Both the position numbers and the translations under genes were made by a program. Source: Metapseudomonas boanensis (GTDB lineage Bacteria; Pseudomonadota; Gammaproteobacteria; Pseudomonadales; Pseudomonadaceae). Taken from it: a stretch of 64,000 nt of DNA. This document shows, piece after piece, positions 1-18,831 of the stretch. The stretch spans positions 682,001 to 746,000 of the forward strand of contig NZ_JAGTIS010000001.1 of assembly GCF_018704125.1 (NCBI RefSeq), read 5' to 3'. The notes below the pieces were generated by a model. That model was given only the letters and a program-made list of their open reading frames with translations, was not told where the DNA came from and did no database searches. Numbering within the stretch: the stretch's first letter is position 1; each line of letters opens with the position of its first letter.

Positions 1-778
1 CGGCAATTACGGGGTACAGGAATGGCTTACCGCCCAGTTCGGCGCGAACTTCCATGACTTTGCCGGTTCCGTGGTCGTGCATGCCGTTGGTGGCTGGTTG
101 GCATTCGCAGCCGTCGTCCTCCTCGGTCACCGCAATGGTCGCTACCGCGAAGGGCGTCTGGTGGCCTTCGCGCCGTCGAACATCCCGTTTCTCGCGCTAG
201 GCTCCTGGATCCTGATCGTGGGCTGGTTCGGCTTCAATGTGATGAGTGCCCAGACGCTGCAGGGCGTCAGTGGCCTGGTGGCGGTCAACTCGTTGATGGC
301 GATGGTCGGGGGCACGGTGGCGGCCCTGGTGGTGGGGCGCAATGACCCGGGCTTCCTGCACAATGGCCCACTGGCTGGTTTGGTTGCGGTCTGTGCGGGT
401 TCCGACCTGATGCACCCGGTGGGAGCGCTGGTCACGGGCGCAATTGCTGGGGGGTTGTTTGTTTGGGCGTTCACCGCCACTCAGGTGAAGTGGAAGCTTG
501 ACGATGTGCTGGGTGTCTGGCCTTTACATGGCCTGTGCGGTGTTTGGGGCGGCATCGCCTGCGGCATCTTCGGTCAGCAGGCTCTGGGTGGAATTGGCGG
601 AGTAAGCCTGGCCAGCCAGCTTATTGGCACTGCGATGGGAGTGTTGGTGGCGCTGGTAGGCGGCTTTGCCGTATATGGCCTGCTCAAGGCGCTTGTTGGT
701 ATTCGCCTGAGCCAGGAGGAGGAGTACTACGGCGCGGACGTGTCGATCCACAAGATTGGTGCAACGTCTCAGGATTGA
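1..778 (+). CDS. amtB: Ammonium transporter AmtB, C-terminal part (5' end outside window)
   Basis: Inner-membrane ammonium channel of the Amt/Rh family. The reading frame is open from base 2 with no start, so the gene begins before the window; about 258 C-terminal residues are visible. They include the family segment DFAGSVVVHAVGGW near base 58-100, several glycine-rich membrane helices, and a cytoplasmic tail rich in Glu and Tyr. In the family, AmtB is usually co-transcribed with the PII gene glnK, which would lie upstream and cannot be seen. The next gene is convergent (oprD-like, minus strand). The family call is firm; the substrate is inferred from the family. Confidence 0.93.
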   Translation, partial: GNYGVQEWLTAQFGANFHDFAGSVVVHAVGGWLAFAAVVLLGHRNGRYREGRLVAFAPSNIPFLALGSWILIVGWFGFNVMSAQTLQGVSGLVAVNSLMAMVGGTVAALVVGRNDPGFLHNGPLAGLVAVCAGSDLMHPVGALVTGAIAGGLFVWAFTATQVKWKLDDVLGVWPLHGLCGVWGGIACGIFGQQALGGIGGVSLASQLIGTAMGVLVALVGGFAVYGLLKALVGIRLSQEEEYYGADVSIHKIGATSQD

Positions 779-837
779 GGAGGTATGAGGCGAATGCGCG
801 ATCATTGATTCCGTGCTTCGCACCACACTTTAGCCAT

Positions 838-860
838 GAAAAGCCCGCCATACGGCGGGC
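838..860 (-). terminator. Rho-independent terminator of the OprD-type porin gene
   Basis: A perfect 7-bp GC stem (843-849 with 854-860, loop of four bases) is followed on the minus strand by TTTT. It starts 8 bases after the porin stop codon. Confidence 0.75.
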
Positions 861-867
861 GGCAAGT

Positions 868-2139
868 TTACCAGAGCGGCAGCACGTAGCTGACGATCAG
901 GCGGTTTTCATCCAGGTCGTTGCCGAAGTTGGTCGAGCGAACCGTCGCGTTACGCCATTTGAGGCCGAGGTTCTTCATTGGGCCGTCCTGGAACACATAG
1001 GCGATGTCGGTGTTGCGCTCCCATTCCTTGCCTTCCGGCTTGGCGGCGCCGAGGTCGATGTTGTCCCCGGAGAGGTAGCGGGTCATGAAGGTCAGGCCGG
1101 GAATGCCGATGCTGGCGAAGTTGTAGTCGTAGCGGGCCTGCCAGGATTTCTCGTCCTTGTTGGCAAAGTCGCCGATCTGCACGTAGTTCACCAGGAATGG
1201 GTCGGTGCCGTTGATGTAGGCGTATCCGGTGTCGCCGCTCATGCTCTGGTAGCCGAGACCGAAGGCATGGCCACCGAGGGCGTAGGTGAACATGGCGCCG
1301 AAGGCCTTGTTGTCGATGTTGCTGGTGCCTTCGTCGGTGGAGCGCGCGTAGCGCAGATCGCTCTTCAGCGATTGTTTGTCGCCCAGCGGCAGGGTGTGCA
1401 GGACGGTGAAGATGTGCTGCTTGTAGAACTCGTCCAGATTGCCGTAGTTGTAGCCAGTGGCCAGGCTGTCGCTCCACTTGTAGGTGGCGCCGGCGAAGTT
1501 GAATTCATCGCTGGTCTGTCCGCCTCGGACGGTGATGCCCCGGGCCCCGCCGTTGGTGGTGGTCATGTCCTCGTAGTTCGAGGAATCGCGCTGATTGACC
1601 TGCTTGAGCTGGCCGGCATCGACAGTCAGGCCATCGATCTCCATGGAGTTCAGATGACCGCCCTGGAAGGTCTGGGGCAGGAGGCGCGAGTCGTTGTACT
1701 GCACGGTGGGCACTTTGGGCAGCAGGGTGCCGACCTTCAGGACGCTCTTGGAGGCGCGCAGCTTGGCGGTGACGCCGACTTCTCCGTACTCGTCCTGGGC
1801 GCGCTTGGGCGCTTCGTTGTCGCGCTGGAGCAGCCCTGTGCCGGCACGGTCCGGGCTGGAGTCGAGCTTGACGCCGAGCAGGCCTATGGCATCGACGCCT
1901 AAGCCCACGGTGCCCTCGGTGAAGCCGGATTCGTAGCGCAGGAGAAAGCCCTGGGCCCATTCCTCGGCCTTGGACTGGGAGGCGTTGTCCTGACGGAAGT
2001 CGCGGTTGAAGTAGAAGTTGCGCAGTTCCAGGCTCGTTTTGCTGTCCTTGATGAACTCGGCCTGGGCAATGGTCGGAAGGGTGAGGCTGGCCCCAAGCGT
2101 GGCCAGCGCCACGGCTTGGGAGAGCGACGTCTTGCTCAT
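868..2139 (-). CDS. OprD-family outer-membrane porin
   Basis: Predicted 423-residue substrate-selective porin of the OprD/Occ family, which takes up amino acids, aromatic acids or similar small molecules across the outer membrane of pseudomonads. A signal peptide ends near residue 27 (AQA-E), followed by the family start FIKDSK and alternating beta-strand segments. The C-terminus ends in YVLPLW, the aromatic-terminated outer-membrane signature. A GAGGA ribosome site lies 9 bases before the ATG. It stands alone, with a terminator behind it. Which OprD subtype (and so which substrate) cannot be told from sequence reading. Confidence 0.9.
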   Translation of the reverse strand: MSKTSLSQAVALATLGASLTLPTIAQAEFIKDSKTSLELRNFYFNRDFRQDNASQSKAEEWAQGFLLRYESGFTEGTVGLGVDAIGLLGVKLDSSPDRAGTGLLQRDNEAPKRAQDEYGEVGVTAKLRASKSVLKVGTLLPKVPTVQYNDSRLLPQTFQGGHLNSMEIDGLTVDAGQLKQVNQRDSSNYEDMTTTNGGARGITVRGGQTSDEFNFAGATYKWSDSLATGYNYGNLDEFYKQHIFTVLHTLPLGDKQSLKSDLRYARSTDEGTSNIDNKAFGAMFTYALGGHAFGLGYQSMSGDTGYAYINGTDPFLVNYVQIGDFANKDEKSWQARYDYNFASIGIPGLTFMTRYLSGDNIDLGAAKPEGKEWERNTDIAYVFQDGPMKNLGLKWRNATVRSTNFGNDLDENRLIVSYVLPLW

Positions 2140-2243
2140 TCTTATTAGATCCTCGTGGTTGTAGGTCGGTCGGGTCGTCCTGTTACAACGAGGTGACTAA
2201 ATCATTTCGTTTCCCATTTTTCCCTTAGACCATCGTCTGCCAG

Positions 2244-3110
2244 TCACTCAACCCAGTTCGGGTAATAGCCGAGCTTGTCGTGCACTTTCGCATCATGTGC
2301 CGGGACTACGGTCAGCTTGGGTTCGCGTTGCAGCAGCTCATGGACTTTCCGCAGCTGTGCGTGGGTGGCTTCGCGGTCATTGTCGACCATCAGGCGGCTG
2401 AGCCAGAACTTCTCATGGGGGCCGGTGAAGCCTTCCAGGCGCCAGCTGGTATCGCCGCTGAAAAAGAAACGGCGGCCGTCGTCCAGCGTCAGGAACAGGC
2501 CGACCGAGCCAGGCGTATGACCGCTGAGCGGCACCAGCACAAGACTGCGGTCGCCGAACAAGTCGAGGCTCTCTTCAAAGCCCATGAAAGGGGCCGGCAG
2601 GAAAGTGAACGGATGCCACTTCACCGGGTGCGCAAACTGACTGGGCAACACAGCCGGCGGGGCTGAAATCTGGGCAAACTCGATCTCTTCGTAGGGCGCC
2701 CAGATCGGCACTTCCGGGAAGTCCACCAGGGCCGAAGCATGGTCCCAGTGGGCATGGCTGAGCAGGATACGGTCGATGCGGATGCCATTCCGGTCCAGTT
2801 GGTCGCGTGCCGGGCTGACCTGGCCGTATTGCAGCAGGGGTTTGTCCCACCAGGGCATTTCGCTGTCGAACTGTTGGTCTACCTGGCGCCCGAGTCCGGT
2901 ATCGAACAACAAAGTGGCGGCATGGTGCTCGATGAGCACGGCAACATGGTTGGCCGTAGCCTTTTTCGTCCAGCTGCCGCCGGAGACCGTGAAGGCGTCC
3001 AGCGCCTCAGTCTCCGAGGTTTTGACGAGGGCGAAGCGCAAGCCGGCGGCGTCGGCCGCAAGGCTGCAGAGACCGAGGAGGACAAGCATGAGCATGGAAG
3101 ACGGGCGCAT
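2244..3110 (-). CDS. Secreted metallo-beta-lactamase-fold hydrolase
   Basis: 288-residue MBL-fold protein. A signal peptide covers roughly residues 1-22 (AADAA-G), so it is probably periplasmic. The metal-binding HAHWDH motif is at residues 119-124, followed by GHTPGS, SGDTSW and PAHD segments that complete the two-metal site. This layout is typical of the lactonase-like MBL branch (AHL lactonases and relatives), but the substrate is unknown. It is the third gene of a minus-strand operon with a GST and a PNPOx-like protein, 3 bases after the latter. An AAGGA ribosome site supports this start. Confidence 0.85.
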   Translation of the reverse strand: MRPSSMLMLVLLGLCSLAADAAGLRFALVKTSETEALDAFTVSGGSWTKKATANHVAVLIEHHAATLLFDTGLGRQVDQQFDSEMPWWDKPLLQYGQVSPARDQLDRNGIRIDRILLSHAHWDHASALVDFPEVPIWAPYEEIEFAQISAPPAVLPSQFAHPVKWHPFTFLPAPFMGFEESLDLFGDRSLVLVPLSGHTPGSVGLFLTLDDGRRFFFSGDTSWRLEGFTGPHEKFWLSRLMVDNDREATHAQLRKVHELLQREPKLTVVPAHDAKVHDKLGYYPNWVE

Positions 3111-8523: not shown

Positions 8524-9111
8524 TCAGTGCTGCGCTTGGGTAGCGTCGAGCAATTCCGGCGTATTCAGATTGGCCAGTCGTGGGTCATTGGGAGGGCAGT
8601 AGACTGCCACGGGGTCGAGCTGGCGCAGGACGCGTTGGGGGCTTCGCTCACCCGCTTGCCAGGCACGTTCGATCCGCGGCAGCAAGGATCGTGGCAGGAC
8701 GCTGAACAGCGGCTCCCAGAAGTCACCCTGGCGCAGCATGACCGGCCGCTCCCCCGCCGCGTTCAGCAGTGCGTCCAGGAGCTCTCGATCGAGCAAAGGG
8801 GCGTCGCAGGGCAATATCAGGAGGTGGTCATGACGGGCGGCGGCCAAACCAGCGCGTATTCCCGCCAGTGGGCCGGGGAAGTCCGGGCTGTCATCCTGCA
8901 CCAATTGATCCGCCCAAGCACAGTAGCGGTCGGCGTTGCGATTGCAGGAGATGATCAGGTCATCGGTGAGTGGCCGCACGCGCTCATGCAGCCAGGCAAT
9001 CAGCGGCCGGCCTTGCCACTCGATCAGGCCCTTGTCGCGGCCACCCATGCGCTGCCCGCGTCCGCCGGAAAGCAACAGGATTGAGCAGGGCGGAAAAGGC
9101 GTGTCGGACAT
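8524..9111 (-). CDS. mobA: Molybdenum cofactor guanylyltransferase MobA
   Basis: 195-residue cytoplasmic enzyme that joins GMP (from GTP) to molybdopterin-Mo, giving the bis-MGD cofactor of the DMSO-reductase family, such as nitrate reductases and formate dehydrogenases. The nucleotidyltransferase signature [17 protein letters not shown] is at about residues 12-28, and LPCDAP marks the metal-binding aspartate. The ATG at 9111 places this motif at the usual distance from the N-terminus; the longer in-frame upstream extension overlaps moaB. It is divergent from moaB-moeA, consistent with a shared cofactor role. Confidence 0.94.
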
Positions 9112-9177
9112 GGCAGTTCTCCAGTGCGGGGCTGTGATATAACACCGGCCATTCACTCTAACAACTGGAAGCCAGCC

Positions 9178-9717
9178 ATGAGTCACAAGGCCGAGGCGGT
9201 GTTCGTGCCGCTGAATATTGCTGTTCTCACCGTTAGCGATACCCGCACCCTGGAAACCGATACCTCCGGACAACTGTTCGTCGATCGTCTGACCGCCGCG
9301 GGCCACAACCTGGCGGCCCGGGTGCTGTTGAAGGACGATCTATACAAGATCCGCGCCCAGGTAGCGACCTGGATCGCCGATGACAGTGTGCAGGTGGTGC
9401 TGATTACCGGCGGTACGGGGTTTACCGGTCGTGATAGTACGCCGGAAGCGGTGACCTGCCTGCTGGATAAACAGGTGGAAGGTTTCGGCGAATACTTCCG
9501 GCAGATTTCCGTGGCTGACATCGGCACTTCGACCATGCAATCCCGCGCCCTGGCGGGGCTGGCAAACGGCACCCTGGTGTGCTGCCTGCCGGGCTCCACC
9601 AACGCCTGTCGCACCGCCTGGGACGGCATCCTGGGTGAACAGCTGGACAACCGTCATCGCCCCTGCAACTTCGTGCCGCACCTGAAGCAGGTTGGGGCGT
9701 GCGAGAGCCGCGGATGA
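9178..9717 (+). CDS. moaB: Molybdenum cofactor protein MoaB
   Basis: 179-residue MogA/MoaB-family protein that binds molybdopterin. The family's role is adenylylation of molybdopterin before metal insertion, though E. coli MoaB itself is non-essential. Conserved segments are [26 protein letters not shown] and CLPGSTNAC. The ATG at 9178 has GGAAG upstream. Its stop overlaps the moeA start (ATGA), so the two are translationally coupled. Confidence 0.93.
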
Positions 9718-10928
9718 ATGGCTGTGACCATCCCGGCCTGCTGCCGGTAGAGGAGGCACTTGCCCGTCTGCTGGCGCTGGCGGAGTCCGCCCCAATTGCA
9801 GGCGATGAGCAAGTGGTCCTCGCCGAGGCTGATGGTCGCGTCCTCGCTGTGCCCCTGGTGGCCGGGCTTGACCTGCCGCCCTGGGCCAACAGCGCGATGG
9901 ACGGTTATGCCCTGCGCCTGGCGGACTGGACTGGCGAGCCCCTGGTCGTGAGTCAGCGGATTCTGGCCGGCAGCGCGCCGCAGCCGCTACAACCGGGCAC
10001 CTGCGCGCGCATCTTTACCGGTGCACCCCTACCCGAAGGGGCCGACACAGTGGAGATGCAGGAGAACGCTGATGTCGAGTCCGATGGCCGAGTGGCCTTC
10101 AGTGAGCCGCTGAGGCAAGGCCAGAACGTCCGCCCCCAAGGGCAGGAGACGCGCCGGGGCGAAACGGTACTGCCAGCCGGCACTCGCATGGGCCCGATCG
10201 AGATGGGGCTTGCCGCATCCCTCGGTGCAGCTGAGCTGACTGTGCGACGCCGGCCTCGGGTGGCCGTTGTGTCTACGGGGGATGAGTTGGTGCCGCCGGG
10301 CCAGCCGCTGGGGCCGGGACAGATTTATAACAGCAACCGCGCCCTGCTGATTGCCTGGTTGAAGCGCCTGGGTTGCGCCGTGGTGGATGCCGGTATCCTC
10401 GCCGACGACCTGGAGCTGACGCGTGCCGCGTTGACGGGGTTGTCGGATGTGGACTTGATTCTTTCTACGGGCGGCGTTTCCGTCGGCGAGGCGGACTTTC
10501 TCGGCCATGCATTGCGTGAGGAGGGCGAACTGGCTCTCTGGAAGCTGGCGATCAAACCAGGAAAACCGCTGACCTTTGGGCATTTTCGTGGTGTACCGGT
10601 GATTGGCTTACCCGGGAACCCAGCCTCGACGCTGGTGACCTTCGGATTGCTGGCGCGGCCTTACCTGCTGCGTCGTCTTGGGGTTCAGGAGGTCGAGCCG
10701 CTGGGCTTCACGGTGGCCGCCGGTTTCGTCTGGAAGAAGCCGGGCAATCGTCGCGAATACTTGCGTGCGCGCCTGGAGCATGGTCGCGCGGTCATTTACC
10801 CGAACCAGAGTTCAGGCGTGCTGCGCAGCGCGGCCTGGGCTGAGGGGCTTGTGGAGGTGCTGGAGGGCACCACGCTGGCTGAGGGTGACAGCGTGCGTTT
10901 TATTCCGCTGAGCGAAATTCAGGCGTAG
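9714..10928 (+). CDS. moeA: Molybdopterin molybdenumtransferase MoeA
   Basis: 404-residue enzyme inserting molybdate into adenylylated molybdopterin. Landmarks: PWANSAMDGYALR near residue 60, IFTGAPLPEGAD, LSTGGVSVGEADF, AIKPGKPLTFG and GLPGNPAS. The ATG at 9714 overlaps the moaB stop by four bases; the alternative GTG five codons earlier lies inside moaB. The pair moaB-moeA is divergent from mobA. Pseudomonads often carry a second moeA elsewhere, so this may be one of two paralogues. Confidence 0.94.
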   Translation: MNGCDHPGLLPVEEALARLLALAESAPIAGDEQVVLAEADGRVLAVPLVAGLDLPPWANSAMDGYALRLADWTGEPLVVSQRILAGSAPQPLQPGTCARIFTGAPLPEGADTVEMQENADVESDGRVAFSEPLRQGQNVRPQGQETRRGETVLPAGTRMGPIEMGLAASLGAAELTVRRRPRVAVVSTGDELVPPGQPLGPGQIYNSNRALLIAWLKRLGCAVVDAGILADDLELTRAALTGLSDVDLILSTGGVSVGEADFLGHALREEGELALWKLAIKPGKPLTFGHFRGVPVIGLPGNPASTLVTFGLLARPYLLRRLGVQEVEPLGFTVAAGFVWKKPGNRREYLRARLEHGRAVIYPNQSSGVLRSAAWAEGLVEVLEGTTLAEGDSVRFIPLSEIQA

Positions 10929-11056: not shown

Positions 11057-12085
11057 TCAGCCCCCAGCTCGCCGTTTCGCCTCGCGGTATTCCCCTGGTG
11101 TCTGCCCGGTCCAGGCCTTGAAGCTGCGATGGAAGGAGCGCGATTCGGTGAAGCCGAGGTAGCTGGCGATGTCCTGGATCGGCAGGTCGCTGCGCAGCAG
11201 ATAGTGTTCGGCCAGGTCCTGGCGCAGCTCATCGAGGATTTGCTGGTAGCTGGTGCCGGCCTGCTGCAGATGGCGTTGCAGAGTGCGCACCGTCATGTGG
11301 AATTTCTCCGCCACGCGCTCCTTGCGCGGTAGTCCGTCTTTCATCAACAAACGCAGCGCGTTCTTCACGCGCTGTGGCAGCGGCTCGTCGTCGTCCAGCC
11401 CGGCCATCAGGGCCAGGGCGTGTTCTTCCAGGGTGCGCAGCAGGTTAGCGTCGGCCTGGCGTAGCGGGACGCTCAGGTACTCGAGCGGTACCAGCAGGGC
11501 GTTGCAAGGCTGCTCGAAGCGTACCGGGCAACCGAAGACTTCTTCGTAATCCTCCAGGCGAGTGTCTATCGGCTGCGTGTGCTCGAACCAGACTTCGCGC
11601 GGGGAGCGCCGCATGTCGGCGATCCAGCGCGCATAGAGCAGCCAGGAGGCGAGCACGTTCTCCACCATGTGACGGCGGATGGCCGGGTCCTGGTGACGGC
11701 AGCTCCAGATCATCCGCACTAGGTCGTCTTCAGCTTCGATGCGGCTGGTGCCCATGTCACCCACGAGCTTTTCGTAGGGCGCAATACGGCTCATGGCTTC
11801 GCCCAGGGTGGCGCAATTCATGGTGATGTAGCCCAGCACGCTCCAGGACCCCGGCTGCACGAAGCGCGCCGAGTGCAAGCCGAAGAGCGAATCGCCAGAC
11901 ATCTGGATAAAGTGCTTTAGCAGGCGTTCGTGGGTTTCGCTGGGCAAGCGTTTGCCATTGTCGGCCAGGTCCTGAGCGCTGAGGCCTGCGGCCTGCAGCG
12001 CGACACTCTGGTCGAGGCCAAGCTGTTCGGCGTGGCGAAGGTATTTGAGAAGGGCGGGGACTGAGGTATAGCCAAGCGATTGCAT
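11057..12085 (-). CDS. AraC-family regulator with arabinose-binding-like N-domain
   Basis: 342-residue transcription factor. The N-terminal domain (about 20-210) resembles the Arabinose_bd type of AraC regulators, e.g. GYITMNCATLGEAM. The C-terminal double helix-turn-helix contains VAEKFHMTVRTLQRHLQ and IASYLGFTESRSFHRSFKAW. The ATG at 12085 starts the conserved region; no strong ribosome site is visible. It is divergent by 131 bp from the AGPS-like / GlpD-like / FGGY operon, making it the likely regulator of that operon. The effector is unknown. Confidence 0.88.
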   Translation of the reverse strand: MQSLGYTSVPALLKYLRHAEQLGLDQSVALQAAGLSAQDLADNGKRLPSETHERLLKHFIQMSGDSLFGLHSARFVQPGSWSVLGYITMNCATLGEAMSRIAPYEKLVGDMGTSRIEAEDDLVRMIWSCRHQDPAIRRHMVENVLASWLLYARWIADMRRSPREVWFEHTQPIDTRLEDYEEVFGCPVRFEQPCNALLVPLEYLSVPLRQADANLLRTLEEHALALMAGLDDDEPLPQRVKNALRLLMKDGLPRKERVAEKFHMTVRTLQRHLQQAGTSYQQILDELRQDLAEHYLLRSDLPIQDIASYLGFTESRSFHRSFKAWTGQTPGEYREAKRRAGG

Positions 12086-12216
12086 GTGAGTTCTTGTTCT
12101 GGGTTGTCCTGATTGGCGAGGGTCGCTGTCCCGATCCGACAGTGACGTCCTTGCGCGGCTGGCTAGTATAGGCAGCCATTGAAAAGCTCCGAAACAACTC
12201 GAACAAGGAGAGCGGC

Positions 12217-13812
12217 ATGCGACGTTGGAATGGCTGGGGAGATGAGGCAACAGTGGTGGAACTGCCCTCCAATGGGCAGGCGTTCCTGGCTGCCCGCATC
12301 GGCGCCGGCCAGCCTTTGGCCGATGCAAGCCTGGCGCAGGTGCTGGCACAGGTGCCGGCTTCGCGCCTCGCCGCTCACCCGTTGGTCAGCCTGGATGCCG
12401 AGGTGCGCGTGCGCCACGCCCGTGGCCAGAGCCTGCCGGATTGGCTGGCAATGCGCGAAGGCACCTTTGGTTGCTTTCCCGATGGAGTGGCCTTCCCCGA
12501 GACAGCAGAACAGGTTCGCCAGTTGCTGGCCTGGGCTGCCGAGCAGGATGTCCTGTTGATTCCCTACGGCGGCGGAACGTCGGTAGCCGGGCATATCAAC
12601 CCCCAGGCCGGCGCCAGACCTGTGCTGACCCTGTCGCTGGCGCGCATGAATCGCCTGCTGGAACTGGACGAGGCTAGCCAGATTGCAACCTTCGGGCCGG
12701 GGGCCAACGGGCCGCAGGTGGAGAGCCAGCTGCGCGCGCGGGGCTTTACCCTTGGGCATTTCCCGCAATCCTGGGAGCTTTCGACCCTCGGCGGCTGGGT
12801 GGCCAGTCGTTCCAGTGGCCAGCAGTCGCTGCGTTATGGGCGCATCGAGCAACTCTTCGCTGGTGGCACCCTGGAAACCTTCGCCGGCCCGTTGGAGTTA
12901 CCGACCTTCCCGGCCTCGTCGGCGGGGCCTGATCTGCGTGAGTTGGTGCTAGGTTCGGAAGGGCGTTTCGGTGTCATCTCCGAGGTCAAGGTGCGGGCCA
13001 GTCGGTTGGCGGAGGATGAGGCGTTCTACGCTGTGTTCATGCCCAGTTGGGAGCAGGCCTTGCAAGGCATCCGCACCTTGGCGCAAGCGCGGGTGCCGCT
13101 GTCCATGCTGCGGCTGTCCAACGCGATTGAGACCGAAACCCAGCTCGCTCTGGCAGGACATCCGGGGCAGATCTCATTGTTGGAGAAGTACCTGGCGCTG
13201 CGTGGCGCCGGTATCGGCAAGTGCATGCTGACCTTTGGCGTCACCGGCAGTCGGGCGCAGAACGCCTCCTCGTTGAAGCAGGCAAAACAGCTGCTCAAAA
13301 GGTTCGGCGGCGTGTTCACAGGCACCGTGCTTGGGAAGAAATGGGCCGCGAACCGCTTCCGCTTCCCTTATCTGCGTCATGCGCTGTGGGCGGCGGGCTA
13401 TGTAGTGGACACCCTGGAAACCGCGACCGACTGGGTGAACGTCGACCACCTGCTTGATCTGATCGAGGGCGGCTTGCGCAATGGCCTGGCGGAGGAGGGC
13501 GAGCAGGTGCATGTCTTTACCCACCTCTCCCATGTCTATGGTGAGGGTTCGAGCATCTATACCACCTACGTCTACCGTCCCGGTGGCAGCTACGCACAGG
13601 CCCTGCGGCGCTGGCGCAAGCTGAAGACGGCGGCCTGCGAAGCCATAGCCCACAATCGCGGCACCATCAGCCATCAGCATGGCGTGGGACGCGATCATGC
13701 CCCCTGGTTAGCGTTGGAGAAGGGGCCTCAGGGCATGGCGGCATTGCGGGCGATTGCGGCGCATTTCGACCCCGAGCGACGCCTGGCTCCAGGCGTGCTG
13801 ATCGAGGATTGA
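12217..13812 (+). CDS. FAD-binding oxidase, alkyldihydroxyacetonephosphate-synthase-like
   Basis: 531-residue flavoprotein of the VAO/PCMH fold. The FAD domain shows PYGGGTSVAG (116-125) and HFPQSWELSTLGGWVASR (181-198), resembling alkyl-DHAP synthase (AGPS), the ether-bond-forming enzyme of plasmalogen synthesis. The C-terminal substrate domain ends with GTISHQHGVG (482-491), in the place where AGPS has its catalytic histidine cluster. AAGGAG precedes the ATG. The next gene starts 3 bases after it. Whether it makes or breaks an ether, or acts on another substrate such as a hydroxy acid, is not decided by sequence. Confidence 0.82.
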   Translation: MRRWNGWGDEATVVELPSNGQAFLAARIGAGQPLADASLAQVLAQVPASRLAAHPLVSLDAEVRVRHARGQSLPDWLAMREGTFGCFPDGVAFPETAEQVRQLLAWAAEQDVLLIPYGGGTSVAGHINPQAGARPVLTLSLARMNRLLELDEASQIATFGPGANGPQVESQLRARGFTLGHFPQSWELSTLGGWVASRSSGQQSLRYGRIEQLFAGGTLETFAGPLELPTFPASSAGPDLRELVLGSEGRFGVISEVKVRASRLAEDEAFYAVFMPSWEQALQGIRTLAQARVPLSMLRLSNAIETETQLALAGHPGQISLLEKYLALRGAGIGKCMLTFGVTGSRAQNASSLKQAKQLLKRFGGVFTGTVLGKKWAANRFRFPYLRHALWAAGYVVDTLETATDWVNVDHLLDLIEGGLRNGLAEEGEQVHVFTHLSHVYGEGSSIYTTYVYRPGGSYAQALRRWRKLKTAACEAIAHNRGTISHQHGVGRDHAPWLALEKGPQGMAALRAIAAHFDPERRLAPGVLIED

Positions 13813-13814
13813 CC

Positions 13815-15389
13815 ATGGTCGCCTGGAATGCCGAGTGGCGCGCCCAATGTCTAGCCGAGCTGGCCGCGCAGGAGTGGGACCTGATCGTGGTCGGCGGCGG
13901 TATCTGCGGCGCCGGAATTCTCCGCGAAGCGGCCCGGCTTGGTTGGAAGTGCCTGCTGCTGGAGCAGCGCGACTTCGCCTGGGGCACCTCCAGCCGCTCC
14001 TCGAAAATGGTGCACGGTGGGCTGCGCTACATCGCCACAGGTCAGCTCGCGTTGACGCGTGCCTCGGTGCGCGAGCGCCAGCGCCTGCTTGCGGAGGCGC
14101 CGGGGCTGGTCGAACCGCTGAGCTTCGTCATGCCTCATCGCGGCGGTTTTCCTGGGCCCAAGGTCTTTGGCGGTCTGCTGACGCTCTACGATGCGCTGGC
14201 CGGCCGGCGAAACCACAGCTACTTCCCGTTGCAACAATTGCGTTACCTGGTACCAGGTTTGAAAGAAGAAGAGCTGCAGGGCGGCACGCGATTCTTCGAT
14301 GCGGTCACCGATGATGCGCGGCTGGTGATGCGGGTGCTCAGCGAAGCTCGGAGCGAAGGCGGCGAAGCCTTGAACGGCATGCGGGTGCTGGAGCTGACGC
14401 GAGCCAACGGGCAGGTGTCCGGCCTGCAGGCCGAGGACGTGGAAAGCGGGCGGCGCTTGGACATCCGTGCCCGGGCCGTGGCGCTGGCCACTGGTGCCTG
14501 GGCGGATCGTCTGCGTCCTGCCGGAAGTTCCGAGCGGATTCGTCCATTGCGTGGCAGCCACTTGCTATTGCCCGGCTGGCGCTTGCCGTTGGCTCACGCG
14601 ATCAGCTTCATGCATCCGGCCGATGGGCGGCCGGTGTTCGTCTTTCCCTGGGAAGGTGCCACGGTGATCGGTACGACCGATCTTGATCATGCCGACAACC
14701 TGGACCAGGACGCGCGCATCAGTTCGGAGGAGGTCGACTATCTCCTGGCGGCCTGTGCCGCGCAGTTTCCTGCCGCAGCGATTTCACGAGGCGATGTGCT
14801 ATCTACCTGGTCGGGCGTTCGCCCGGTGGTCAGCGACGGCGAGGCACGGGTCAAGCCTTCTGCCGAAAAGCGCGAGCATGCGATTTGGGTTGAACCGGGC
14901 TGCGTGACCCTGGCGGGCGGCAAACTGACGACTTTTCGCCTGCTGGCCCTGGAGGTGCTGCAGGCGTGCAGCGGCTTTGTCGGCCGCCCCTTGGGCGATA
15001 GCGACGCCGAGGTCTTCGCGCCCTCTGCCGCCCCGGCGTTATCCGGCCTCTCGCCGGCCCGGCAGCGGCGGCTGGCCGGTCGCTATGGGCGTGCGCTACC
15101 TGAGCTCGCGCGCTGGGTCGAACGCTTGGGCGCCGAGCGCGTAGGTGTAACCGACACGCTCTGGGCGGAGTTGGCCTGGGCGGCTCAAGGCGAATTGGTC
15201 CTGCATCTCGATGACCTGTTGCTGCGACGGACGCGTCTGGGCCTGTTGCTGCCGGCTGGCGCGCAGGCAGAGCTCCAGCGGATCCGGACCCTGTGTCAGC
15301 CGTTGCTGGGCTGGGACGATGAGCGTTGGTCGAGTGAAGTCCAGCAGTACCAGGCGCTATGGCAGCGTTGCTACAGCTTGCCTGAATAA
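13815..15389 (+). CDS. FAD-dependent glycerol-3-phosphate dehydrogenase-like oxidase
   Basis: 524-residue GlpD/GlpO-family flavoprotein. The FAD-binding motif is at residues 22-38 ([14 protein letters not shown]), then [17 protein letters not shown] and IGTTDLDH, the classical GlpD signatures. GlpD enzymes oxidise sn-glycerol 3-phosphate to dihydroxyacetone phosphate and pass electrons to quinone at the inner membrane. The context (AGPS-like enzyme before, FGGY kinase after) suggests a paralogue dedicated to a substituted glycerol phosphate rather than the housekeeping GlpD. GAGG lies 7 bases before the ATG at 13815; a TTG two codons earlier overlaps the previous stop. Confidence 0.87.
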
Positions 15390-15408
15390 CAAGAACAAGG
15401 ACCGTACC

Positions 15409-16968
15409 GTGAGCGAAAAGAGTTACCTGCTGGCCATCGACAACGGCACCCAGAGCGTACGCGCCCTATTGTTCGACCTGGATGGCAACCTGGTGGGCAA
15501 GGGCAAGGTGCCACTGGAGGCCTATTTTTCCAGCCAGCCGGGCTGGGCCGAGCAGGACCCAGAATATTACTGGGCCAGTCTGGGGGAGGCGTGCCAGCGC
15601 CTCTGGGCTTCGGTAGACATCGACAAGCGATTGATCCGTGGTGTCTCGCTCACCACGCAGCGCGGCACGGTGATCAATGTTGATCAGCAGGGTGCGCCTT
15701 TGCGCCCGGCAATCCTCTGGCTCGATCAGCGTCAGGCCGAGGTGCGGGATCGCATCAAGGGGCCTTGGGGGTGGCTGTTCAAGCTGATAGGTGAAGAAGC
15801 CACGGTGGACTATTTTCGTGCCCAGGCCGAAGCCAACTGGGTGGCGCAGAACCAGCCTGAGGTGTGGTCGCGCACCCACAAGGTCCTGCTCCTATCGGGT
15901 TTTCTCACCCATCGCCTGTGCGGTCGCTTCGTGGATTCGGTGGCCTGCCAGGTTGCCTATCTGCCGTTCGACTACAAGCGCTTGCAGTGGGCCGCCCCGC
16001 GTGACTGGAAGTGGCAGTCCATGCCAGTACGCCGCGAGCAGTTACCGGAGCTCTGCAAACCGGGTGAGCGCTTGGGCAGCATCAGCGCGACGGCCAGCCG
16101 ACACACAGGCATCCCCGAAGGCCTGCCGCTGATCGCCGCTGGTGCTGACAAGGCCTGCGAAGTGCTCGGGGCGGGTGGGGTGGAGCCGAGTATTGCGTGC
16201 CTTTCCTACGGCACCACCGCGACGATCAACACCACGCGGAACAAGTACCTCGAGACGATTGCGCTGATACCGCCGTATCCGGCGGCGATCCCGGATCAGT
16301 TCAATACCGAGGTGATGATCTACCGGGGTTTCTGGATGGTCAGCTGGTTCAAGCAAGAGTTCGGCTTGCATGAGATGCAGCGAGCCGGGGAGCTGGGGGT
16401 CGAGCCAGAAGACTTGTTCGACGAGCTGGTGAACAGCGTACCAGCGGGCTCCATGGGGTTGATGTTGCAGCCGTACTGGTCGCCGGGCATCCGCGAGCCG
16501 GGCCTGGACGCCAAGGGCTCGATCATTGGTTTTGGTGATGTGCATACGCGTGCTCATCTCTACCGCGCCATTCTCGAGGGGCTGGCCTACGCCCTGCGCC
16601 AGGGCAAGGAGCGCATTGAAAAGCGCTCGGGAACGCGGATCAGCCGGCTGCGGGTATCCGGTGGCGGTTCGCAGAGCGATGCGGCGATGCAGATCACCGC
16701 CGATATCTTTGGGCTGCCGGCGGAAAGGCCGCATGTCTACGAGACCTCAGGGCTGGGTGCCGCCATCGACTGCGCGGTGGGGCTGGGGTTGTATCCCGAC
16801 TTCCCCAGCGCAATCAGCGCCATGACGCGGGTCGGTCAGGTATTCCACCCAAACCCGCAGGCGCAGGGTATCTATGAGCGACTGTATCGTGAGGTCTATC
16901 AGGAGATGTACCAGCAGCTGCGGCCGCTGTATCGGAAGATTCGCGAGATCACAGGATATCCGGCCTGA
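15409..16968 (+). CDS. FGGY-family carbohydrate (glycerol/polyol) kinase
   Basis: 519-residue sugar kinase of the FGGY family, which phosphorylates glycerol, xylulose and similar polyols with ATP. The N-terminal phosphate-binding segment [17 protein letters not shown] and the C-terminal [18 protein letters not shown] and [15 protein letters not shown] are family hallmarks. It starts at GTG 15409 with AAGG 8 bases upstream; an upstream in-frame ATG lies inside the previous gene. It is the last gene of the three-gene operon. The substrate is probably a glycerol derivative, judging from the GlpD-like partner (inference). Confidence 0.87.
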
Positions 16969-17023
16969 CGTGTTTGGGCGGCGCTGCTGCCCGTCACCCT
17001 GTGGGAGAGGGGCAGCAGTTGTA

Positions 17024-17722
17024 TCAGGCCACATCCACCAGGACGATTTCACTGTCTTCGCTGGCGGTGAAACTGAGGACCTCGACGTCGCTCACCGCAA
17101 CACCGTCGCGCGCTTCGGCGGGAACGCCGTTGACCTCATAGCGGCCCGTGGCGGCGACCAGGTAGGCCTTGCGGCCTTTTTCCAAGCGGTACTCGGCAGT
17201 CTGCCCAGCCTTGATCGTTGCCGCCACCAGGCGGGCATTGGCGCGGATAGGCAGGGCGTCGCCACCTTCATCGATGCCGCTCGCCAGGGTTACGAAGCTG
17301 CCGGAGCGCTCCCCCTTGGGAAACGGGCGTGTACCCCAGGACGGCGCGGTGCCGTACCGCGTTGGCATGATCCAGATCTGGAAGATCCGGGTGGTCTCAT
17401 CTTCCAGGTTGTACTCGCTGTGGGCAATGCCGGTACCGGCGCTCATCACCTGCACATCGCCCGCCTCGGTGCGGCCCTTGTTGCCCAGGTTGTCCTGGTG
17501 GGTAATCGCGCCATCTCGGACGTAAGTGATGATTTCCATATCCTGGTGCGGGTGCGGCGGGAAGCCTGAATGCGGTGCGATCTCGTCATCGTTCCAGACC
17601 CGTAGCTGGCCCCAGTTCATGCGCTGGCTGTCGTAGTAGCCGGCGAATGAGAAATGGTGGCGGGCATTCAGCCAGCCGTGGTGGGCGCCGCCCAGTTCGG
17701 CAAAGGGGCGTACTTCGATCAT
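17024..17722 (-). CDS. Pirin-family cupin protein
   Basis: 232-residue bicupin. The N-terminal pirin motif contains HHFSFAGYY and GFPPHPHQDMEIITYV, which supplies the metal-binding His and Glu residues; AGTGIAHSEYN completes it. Bacterial pirins include quercetin 2,3-dioxygenases and regulators of central metabolism; the role here is unassigned. It is a single-gene minus-strand unit, convergent with the FGGY kinase operon. Confidence 0.9.
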   Translation of the reverse strand: MIEVRPFAELGGAHHGWLNARHHFSFAGYYDSQRMNWGQLRVWNDDEIAPHSGFPPHPHQDMEIITYVRDGAITHQDNLGNKGRTEAGDVQVMSAGTGIAHSEYNLEDETTRIFQIWIMPTRYGTAPSWGTRPFPKGERSGSFVTLASGIDEGGDALPIRANARLVAATIKAGQTAEYRLEKGRKAYLVAATGRYEVNGVPAEARDGVAVSDVEVLSFTASEDSEIVLVDVA

Positions 17723-17931
17723 GGTCGGATCTCCTCTCTGATCGTGGGGCTGCTTCCCCGCGATGGATGGCCGGCATGTTCTATCAACTTACTATCGATA
17801 AAAAGCGCAAATAGTCGGGATTTCCAATCTAATAAATGAATATATCTTGAGTGATTAGGCATTCGCTGAAGAGAAGGGGGCTTGCTTTTGCCGGCCTATA
17901 CTCCGGCGATTGAACCCTTCCGGAGCGGTTG

Positions 17932-18831
17932 ATGAGTGAGCGCAAGGCGTTGCTGATCCTGCATGGCAAGCAGGCGATCAATGAAGAGGTGCGGGCCGCC
18001 GTGCAGCGACGACGCAAGGCAGGCTGGGGGCTGGCTGTGCGAGTGACCTGGGAGGCCGGCGATGCCCAGCGGTTGGTGAACGAGGCGCTGGCTGCCGGCT
18101 ACTCGACCCTGATCGCGGGTGGTGGTGATGGCCTGGTCAGGGAAGTAGCGGAGGCCATGGCGCTTGCCCGAGCCGATGCCAGCCTGGTGTTAATGCCCCT
18201 CGGCACTGCCAATGACTTTGCGCGTGCGGCAGGCGTGCCGCTGCTTCCGAACGAAGCGCTGGCAATGCTGGATGTGCAGGCGCGTCCCGTTGATCTGGGG
18301 GAAGCCGATGGCCACCTGTTCCTCAATATGGCCACTGGCGGTTTCGGCTCGAAGATCACCGCCAATACCCCGGAAGAGCTGAAAAAGGTGCTGGGTGGTG
18401 CAGCTTACCTGCTCACCGGATTGAGTCACTTTTCCGAAGTCCATTCTGCTTACGGTCGATTCCGCGGGCCGAATTTCAAGTGGAAAGGTGAGTTTCTTGC
18501 CCTGGGTATTGGCAATGGCCGCCAGGCCGGGGGCGGTCATGTGCTTTGCCCTCAGGCTGAAATCGATGACGGATTGCTTGATCTTTGCATCGTCCCCGCT
18601 CCTCAGGATGTTGTGGGCACTCTAGCGACGCTGCTCTCCGGTGGTGTGCTGGGACTCGAGTCCGTGTCCATCAGTGCGCGTTTGCCCTGGGTCGAAGTGG
18701 AGGCGCCTGAAGGTCTGGACATCAATCTCGATGGCGAGCCGTTGGAGAGTCGTGGTTTGCGATTCAGCGCACGCTCCGGTGCCGTGCGTATTCACCTGCC
18801 GCCAGACTCGCCTTTGCTCGGGGCCCGATGA
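17932..18831 (+). CDS. yegS: Lipid kinase YegS
   Basis: 299-residue diacylglycerol-kinase-like enzyme that uses ATP to phosphorylate lipids, with phosphatidylglycerol reported for E. coli YegS. The catalytic-domain motif AGGGDGLVREVAEAM is near residue 60 and PLGTANDFARA follows; the C-terminal beta domain contains LDINLDGEPLES. GGAG lies upstream of the ATG at 17932; a TTG one codon before is not preferred. It is preceded by a 209-bp AT-richer intergenic stretch that probably holds its promoter. Confidence 0.92.
   Translation: MSERKALLILHGKQAINEEVRAAVQRRRKAGWGLAVRVTWEAGDAQRLVNEALAAGYSTLIAGGGDGLVREVAEAMALARADASLVLMPLGTANDFARAAGVPLLPNEALAMLDVQARPVDLGEADGHLFLNMATGGFGSKITANTPEELKKVLGGAAYLLTGLSHFSEVHSAYGRFRGPNFKWKGEFLALGIGNGRQAGGGHVLCPQAEIDDGLLDLCIVPAPQDVVGTLATLLSGGVLGLESVSISARLPWVEVEAPEGLDINLDGEPLESRGLRFSARSGAVRIHLPPDSPLLGAR

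Follow-up and report, generated by a model that had tools for sequence, protein, structure and literature searches.

The window analysed here, a stretch of 64,000 nucleotides from Metapseudomonas boanensis (contig NZ_JAGTIS010000001.1 of assembly GCF_018704125.1, positions 682,001 to 746,000), carries on its plus strand an operon of three genes, for which we propose a role in the breakdown of glycerols substituted at carbon 1. The first gene codes for an AGPS-like flavin adenine dinucleotide (FAD) enzyme (12217..13812, start ATG). It is followed by the genes of a GlpD-like FAD dehydrogenase (13815..15389, start ATG) and of an FGGY-family kinase (15409..16968, start GTG). These three proteins are the orthologues of PA3026, PA3025 and PA3024 of Pseudomonas aeruginosa. 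The gene of an AraC-family activator, gliR (orthologue of PA3027; 11057..12085, minus strand), is divergent from this trio, 131 bases away from the AGPS-like gene. An earlier note on this DNA had described three genes, 2 and 19 bases apart and facing an AraC regulator, as one operon; coordinates and open reading frames (ORFs) agree with this, and the operon is confirmed with that gene set and order. To the reading of the trio as a breakdown module for a C1-substituted glycerol we give an even chance.

In the pathway that we propose, the kinase would phosphorylate C3 of a 1-substituted glycerol, the GlpD-like enzyme would oxidise C2 to a ketone, giving a 1-substituted dihydroxyacetone phosphate (DHAP), and the AGPS-like flavoenzyme would bind C1 via its flavin and put water or another acceptor in the place of the substituent. 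The products would be DHAP and the freed group. The likeliest natural substrate would be a 1-O-alkylglycerol, from which a fatty alcohol would be released; this choice of substrate we put forward tentatively, at less than even odds. What all three reactions are, which way they run and on what substrate, we infer from the gene set, its conservation and its active-site patterns. The earlier note had already outlined the succession of a kinase, an oxidation at C2 and an AGPS-type step, a logic which holds in the light of a kinase pocket that differs from that of glycerol kinase, of separate GlpK- and GlpD-like genes in the genome, and of AGPS-kinase pairs met elsewhere.

The operon and its regulator are already in print; it is the biochemical function which remains to be assigned. 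As reported in the available part of PMC8151288 (2021), in P. aeruginosa GliR (PA3027) is the activator of PA3026-PA3023: it binds to the promoter of PA3026 and turns it on. In the same work, twelve genomes with such an operon were counted among 1748. The P. aeruginosa cluster had been described in the earlier note as lacking an assigned function, and this is still true of its biochemical role; the regulon itself had been characterised as that of GliR (PMC8151288). Among papers under an open licence, we found no later experimental work on the function of the operon, and the available part of a study of glycerol 3-phosphate (G3P) metabolism in P. aeruginosa makes no mention of PA3024 or PA3025 (PMC9765544). 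What comparison of sequences adds here is the conservation of the trio, the patterns of its pockets, the pairing with kinases in other lineages and the contrast with acyltransferase-linked genes.

The trio is not a chance arrangement. A scan of the collection with a trio-type alignment gave at least 581 relatives, of which we kept the best 80 as loci: 37 of them are titled Pseudomonas, the rest being spread over 14 other named genera and metagenome-assembled genomes (MAGs) without a genus name. Among these best 80 loci, the trio is complete and in the same order in 75, with the AGPS-like gene first in all 75, and it is this regularity which argues against chance. Contig ends cut the trio in three more (L096, L102 and L111). 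A GliR homologue stands divergent within 500 bp of the trio in 49 of the 80; in five, the kinase gene is directly followed, no more than 400 bp away, by that of a YegS-type lipid kinase. Every genome of the genus that was searched (18 of 18) has the AGPS-like gene. At G005:C1:2288628-2290221, this gene matches in two frames, which reflects either a broken gene or a sequencing error. An even draw over the class gave matches at 1e-30 in 10 of 274 genomes, one of them being the source of the window; in a draw over the phylum, 18 of 299 match at 1e-60. Seven class-draw loci are of the trio type (L023-L029), and the kinase is present in six of them, in L026 beyond an ORF of the opposite strand. Conserved neighbours were considered as a clue to the substrate and rejected: gene clustering over 53 loci (46 of the collection's 80, together with the seven class-draw loci) revealed no general partner besides the trio and the GliR homologue. 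The next commonest cluster, made of GGDEF/EAL proteins, occurs in 13 of the 53 and was treated as background. Clusters common to 10 loci all reflect Marinobacter-type synteny. No transporter is widely shared at the trio loci, a major facilitator superfamily (MFS) cluster being present in 3 of the 53.

The pockets of the second and third enzymes suggest a dehydrogenase built for a G3P moiety and a kinase that is not built for glycerol. The GlpD-like protein (Pfam DAO and DAO_C) matches G3P dehydrogenases and oxidases in the PDB (3da1, E = 1.9e-65). Its score lies under the cut-off of the curated GlpD model (274.7 against 360 bits, NF008899), so that it belongs to a distinct subfamily. Seven positions of Escherichia coli GlpD (50, 54, 55, 233, 317, 332 and 354), which we take to make up the substrate site, are identical in 84 of 84 sequences, a redundant set with many rows from Pseudomonas. 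This pocket being intact, a G3P moiety is expected in the substrate of step 2. The kinase (Pfam FGGY_N and FGGY_C) has glycerol kinases and autoinducer-2 kinases as its PDB matches. It remains under the NCBIfam cut-offs for xylulokinase (257 against 380 bits) and for glycerol kinase (157.5 against 590 bits with TIGR01311), and reaches 160.9 bits with PRK00047, where the cut-off is 498. Its ORF opens upstream at 15211, within the GlpD-like gene, and Pfam homology begins at residue 6 of the protein translated from the GTG at 15409.

Glycerol is presumably held in E. coli GlpK by seven residues, Arg83, Glu84, Trp103, Tyr135, Asp245, Gln246 and Phe270. Across 82 trio kinases, again a redundant set rich in Pseudomonas, Arg83, Trp103 and Asp245 are kept in all, and the four others are altered. 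Glu84 is lost in 82 of 82 (replaced by Gly in 69, Ala in nine, Tyr in three and Ser in one), Tyr135 is kept in a single sequence, as is Gln246, which becomes Lys in 81, and Phe270 is kept in none, Thr taking its place in all 82. The changes of Glu to Gly and of Phe to Thr may make room in the pocket, in line with a lipid substrate. Ordinary catabolism of glycerol, redundant with that of the cell and accompanied by an unrelated FAD enzyme, would also account for the intact pocket of the GlpD-like protein, and redundancy is raised in PMC8151288. We find this account most improbable. Both enzyme superfamilies are indeed those of the GlpK and GlpD pathway, but the trio kinase departs from GlpK at four of seven contacts, an AGPS-like enzyme is added, first in all the complete trios, and the canonical genes stand elsewhere in the genome, where a GlpK-like gene that keeps 7 of 7 contacts lies some 2 kb from another GlpD-like gene. 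Furthermore, deletion in P. aeruginosa had no glycerol phenotype, as far as the available part of PMC8151288 goes.

The first enzyme of the trio goes with AGPS. It comprises the Pfam domains FAD_binding_4 and FAD-oxidase_C, and its best matches in the PDB are AGPS structures (2uuu, E = 2.3e-64; mammalian AGPS, 1.4e-55), with a putative oxidoreductase, glycolate oxidase and D-lactate dehydrogenase (D-LDH) at only about 1e-17 to 1e-16. Homology with AGPS (2uuu, 4bby) extends over almost the full length. R299 and Y448 of the window protein align with Arg419 and Tyr578 of the mammalian chain (Phe at 578 in 4bca), which we take to be catalytic residues. This Arg and this Tyr recur in 39 of 39 AGPS-like rows; E. 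coli GlcD has Glu and Met instead. Of the HHH motif of AGPS, the first and third His are shared; the window protein reads SHQHGVG, so that the motif is incomplete. The trio protein differs from AGPS in having Gln as the middle residue (10 of 12 trio rows, His being found in L029 and L105), and also in its partners, a kinase and a GlpD-like enzyme and no acyltransferase.

Could the protein be a dehydrogenase of the GlcD or D-LDH kind, acting on a hydroxy acid or a polyol phosphate, in a trio that degrades a sugar alcohol? Its top NCBIfam match is GlcD, at 104 bits for a cut-off of 568, and pairs of a kinase with a GlpD-like enzyme are known for erythritol (EryA/EryB). This would nevertheless be very improbable, because the PDB search places AGPS far above GlcD or D-LDH, and E. 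coli GlcD, which has no equivalents of R299, Y448 and H486, falls outside every AGPS-like row, at the end of a very long branch, in a tree rooted at its midpoint. On the whole, Pfam, NCBIfam and PDB agree with the families that the earlier note had given to the three enzymes.

Homology with AGPS and conservation of its catalytic residues also fit synthesis of ether lipids. This is what the authors of PMC8151288 proposed, in the part available: glycerol would give G3P, then DHAP, then acyl-DHAP by the action of an acyltransferase from elsewhere, then alkyl-DHAP by that of the AGPS-like enzyme. An enzyme of the PlsB/PlsC type, encoded elsewhere in the genome, could act as the acyltransferase. 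We hold this direction to be improbable for the trio, whose kinase pocket is not of the glycerol kinase type and whose second enzyme is of the GlpD type, which is oxidising. An acyltransferase beside an AGPS-like gene is the layout expected for synthesis, and it exists in Gammaproteobacteria at loci that are not of the trio type. L030 has a PF01553 acyltransferase as partner, L031 has one together with an epimerase/PF07993-type reductase, and in L032 a stretch matching the L030 acyltransferase adjoins the AGPS region. In this last locus both lie in one frame of 826 codons (286-2763, minus strand), possibly that of a fused enzyme. Searched with the L030 and L031 acyltransferases as probes, the 87 trio-type loci gave no match at 1e-4 within their own bounds, in agreement with the absence of such an enzyme that the earlier note had observed. 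L030 and L031 supplied the two probes and so match themselves, which leaves L032 and the Pfam results as independent positives; among non-trio AGPS-like genes the test covered L030-L032 and not, for example, L157-L160 or L162. One genome, G129, has AGPS-like genes of both kinds, in a trio (L025) and with an acyltransferase (L031). A probe for fatty acyl-CoA reductase (PF07993) matched 14 of 14 control genomes and does not discriminate.

AGPS-like genes of other lineages also have kinases beside them, which is in line with a phosphorylative module. Two annotated plasmids of Actinomycetota carry the order GlpD - TetR - AGPS-like - YegS/Rv2252 lipid kinase. The AGPS-like and GlpD families are common to this cluster and the trio; the trio differs in having an FGGY kinase where the lipid kinase stands, and GliR where TetR stands. 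A draw of Actinomycetota gave matches at 1e-130 in 35 of 246 genomes, one of them the MAG of L105. Among the other 34 loci, some of which are short, nine have GlpD, and eight of these nine also have the lipid kinase; probes for the FGGY kinase and the acyltransferase matched none of the 34. Plasmids of Roseibium, Shinella and Paracoccus show yet another layout, with LacI, the AGPS-like gene, an FGGY kinase, an ABC importer of the Ugp type, a glycerol/Fe dehydrogenase and a short-chain dehydrogenase/reductase in succession. In L161, one strand codes for an MFS transporter, a kinase, GlpD and AGPS, at 25-33% identity to the trio. Fifteen of 41 matching plasmid records were examined at the AGPS-like gene: three have the FGGY layout and two that of GlpD and lipid kinase, three adjoin a glutathione S-transferase (GST) gene, three have a CoA-transferase, three have other neighbours and one is unannotated.

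Phylogeny gives some order to this variety. In the AGPS tree, where GlcD, L161 and L162 are long branches, the trio-type rows form one clade of 14, L095 and L097 included (support 100/100). It joins a nine-row clade of Actinomycetota that holds the GlpD-linked rows (23 rows together, 99/96). The alphaproteobacterial rows with FGGY and ABC genes make another clade with L161 and L162 (100/99), and L031 and L032 stand apart (100/100). The kinase tree groups L161 with GlpK (100/99) and the alphaproteobacterial kinases with XylB (98/94), the trio kinases forming a separate branch with L162 (100/98). The L161 kinase keeps 6 of 7 GlpK contacts, with Ala for Glu84, a position that is lost in the trio too. 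Three branches of AGPS-linked FGGY kinases might mean three recruitments. This is a reading and not a proof, because the reference kinases are few and the program flagged several long branches.

Regulation in P. aeruginosa has a flavour of lipids. According to the available part of PMC8151288, an excess of GliR raised PA3024 173-fold, PA3025 163-fold and PA3026 135-fold, but also the phospholipase C gene PA3464 130-fold, that of the lipid kinase YegS, PA3023, 47-fold, and PA3342 (DUF2804) 15-fold. Lipid enzymes, namely a phospholipase C and a lipid kinase, respond to the same activator, and this favours a lipid substrate, a view also backed by the lipid kinase of the neighbouring clade and by the lack of a widely shared transporter. 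The regulator of the window is recognised as GliR by NCBIfam (NF050186, 677.6 bits for a cut-off of 570; Pfam Arabinose_bd and HTH_18). Gene order and divergent regulator are identical to those of the PA3027-PA3023 regulon, except that a pirin gene (17024..17722, minus strand) here parts the operon from the orthologue of PA3023, a YegS-type lipid kinase (17929..18831, plus strand, identified from its ORF and used as a tblastn probe); a pirin gene is also reported ahead of the PA3023 orthologue of a P. mendocina genome (PMC8151288, in the part available). We infer that this lipid kinase is a member of the trio pathway.

A candidate GliR operator is predicted at 12112..12147 (plus strand), from an alignment of 13 upstream regions and a pattern search of 18 genomes of the genus. 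In the alignment, ATTGGC is followed by CTGTC-N7-GACAGTGAC, with variants, then by GCTAGTAT; the window has ATTGGC, the palindrome CTGTC-N7-GACAG at 12126-12142, and GTGACG. With up to 3 mismatches allowed, every genome among the matches listed (seven genomes fully, an eighth partly) shows a single perfect match, which lies immediately ahead of its AGPS-like gene. In the window scan, promoter matches to the published motifs A and B require 2-3 mismatches and are uninformative, the window as a whole having 375 and 135 matches for shuffle means of 226 and 74. At this promoter the motifs described for P. aeruginosa (PMC8151288, available in part) do no better than chance, and it is a different palindrome that is conserved. 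A sigma-70 scan of 12050-17100 found no promoter, and an inverted-repeat tool reported no repeat in 12080-12222; the palindrome came from the alignment instead.

FGGY kinases mostly act on small soluble compounds. The same module could therefore handle a small soluble 1-substituted glycerol, such as a short ether, a glycoside, an amine or a charged derivative, a sub-case of the reading that we prefer and, as we see it, a possible but rather unlikely one. The Ugp-type importer of the three alphaproteobacterial plasmids and the MFS/sugar transporters of L161 and L162 would suit such a substrate, and a charged group could equally well be accommodated by the Lys that replaces Gln246 in 81 of 82 trio kinases. 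Against it stand the lack of a transporter family widely shared among trio loci, the lipid-flavoured response to GliR (PMC8151288, in the part available) and the clade that joins the trio with pairs involving a lipid kinase. On this point the earlier note went too far: kinase habits and the sugar-type transporters of distant clusters leave the alkyl chain at C1, and with it the release of a fatty alcohol, not fixed. Its interpretation is partly supported. Those transporters and that Lys also belong to a series of observations which weigh against the reading that we prefer. The AGPS-like gene is alone, without kinase and GlpD, in L095 and L097, and the trio-type locus L028 has no kinase. In 25 of the 34 Actinomycetota loci, some of them short, there is no match to GlpD, lipid kinase or FGGY kinase. 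AGPS-like clades whose genes adjoin those of a CoA-transferase or a GST also keep the Arg and Tyr equivalents of AGPS, so that these two residues mark the family and are no proof of a DHAP substrate. The operator-like element occurs only at the trio promoter in the genomes listed, and no regulon link to phospholipase was therefore found in the genus. In the available part of PMC8151288, deletion of GliR or of the operon made no difference, whether on rich medium, on citrate, on glycerol or on BIOLOG plates. Finally, the direction is a proposal from chemistry: the AGPS reaction is an exchange, which makes working in reverse, towards breakdown, plausible.

Ether lipids are chemically hardy. If the breakdown of alkylglycerols by the trio is real, a phosphorylative bacterial route would be a second solution to this problem. 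According to the available part of a 2021 review, no enzyme besides alkylglycerol monooxygenase (AGMO) is known to cleave alkylglycerols (PMC7911779). AGMO shares with the proposed route the compound to be broken; it is a monooxygenase, whereas the trio would use phosphorylation and no oxygen at the cleavage step. That AGPS-family flavoenzymes in nature should break down bacterial glycerol ethers, by phosphorylation, oxidation at C2 and flavin-borne exchange at C1, in a way distinct from AGMO, is a broader conjecture, and we regard it as rather unlikely. Were it true, the trio kinase would be the gene for an alkylglycerol kinase activity, kinases of the FGGY and YegS types would have been recruited several times beside AGPS-like enzymes, and a regulated operon found in many Gammaproteobacteria would receive a function. 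It would also call for caution in labelling bacterial AGPS-like proteins as makers of ether lipids. Genomic partners, a kinase and a dehydrogenase or an acyltransferase, split these proteins into groups that can be tested.

Some observations deserve mention in their own right. In plasmids of Sphingopyxis macrogoltabida, Ancylobacter polymorphus and Aminobacter (L147, L148 and L151), the AGPS-like gene is directly ahead of one with a GST domain. Among these hosts there are known degraders of polyethylene glycol or cyclic ethers, and an ether-cleaving role for these GST-linked enzymes is worth a look. Plasmids of Polaromonas, Roseovarius and Bradyrhizobium (L122, L152 and L153) hold an AGPS-like clade beside CoA-transferase genes, two of them with tripartite tricarboxylate transporter genes as well. 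In four Actinomycetota loci (L256, L261, L262 and L264), the AGPS-like gene is near genes of a thiamine-diphosphate enzyme and a zinc alcohol dehydrogenase. Around the trio itself there are a few leads: a PhoD phosphatase downstream in L071 and L098, an Fe-alcohol dehydrogenase downstream in the Hahella locus L072, and, in L103, an AMP-binding enzyme encoded upstream on the opposite strand. Two loci reflect either transfer or mislabelled contigs: L105, where the whole trio stands in a MAG labelled Actinomycetota, and L052, on a contig labelled Rhodanobacter, whose trio is 77-84% identical to that of the window. In the window, the genes upstream of the locus (8524-10928) appear, from their translations alone, to be MobA-, MoaB- and MoeA-like, that is, of the molybdenum-cofactor type.

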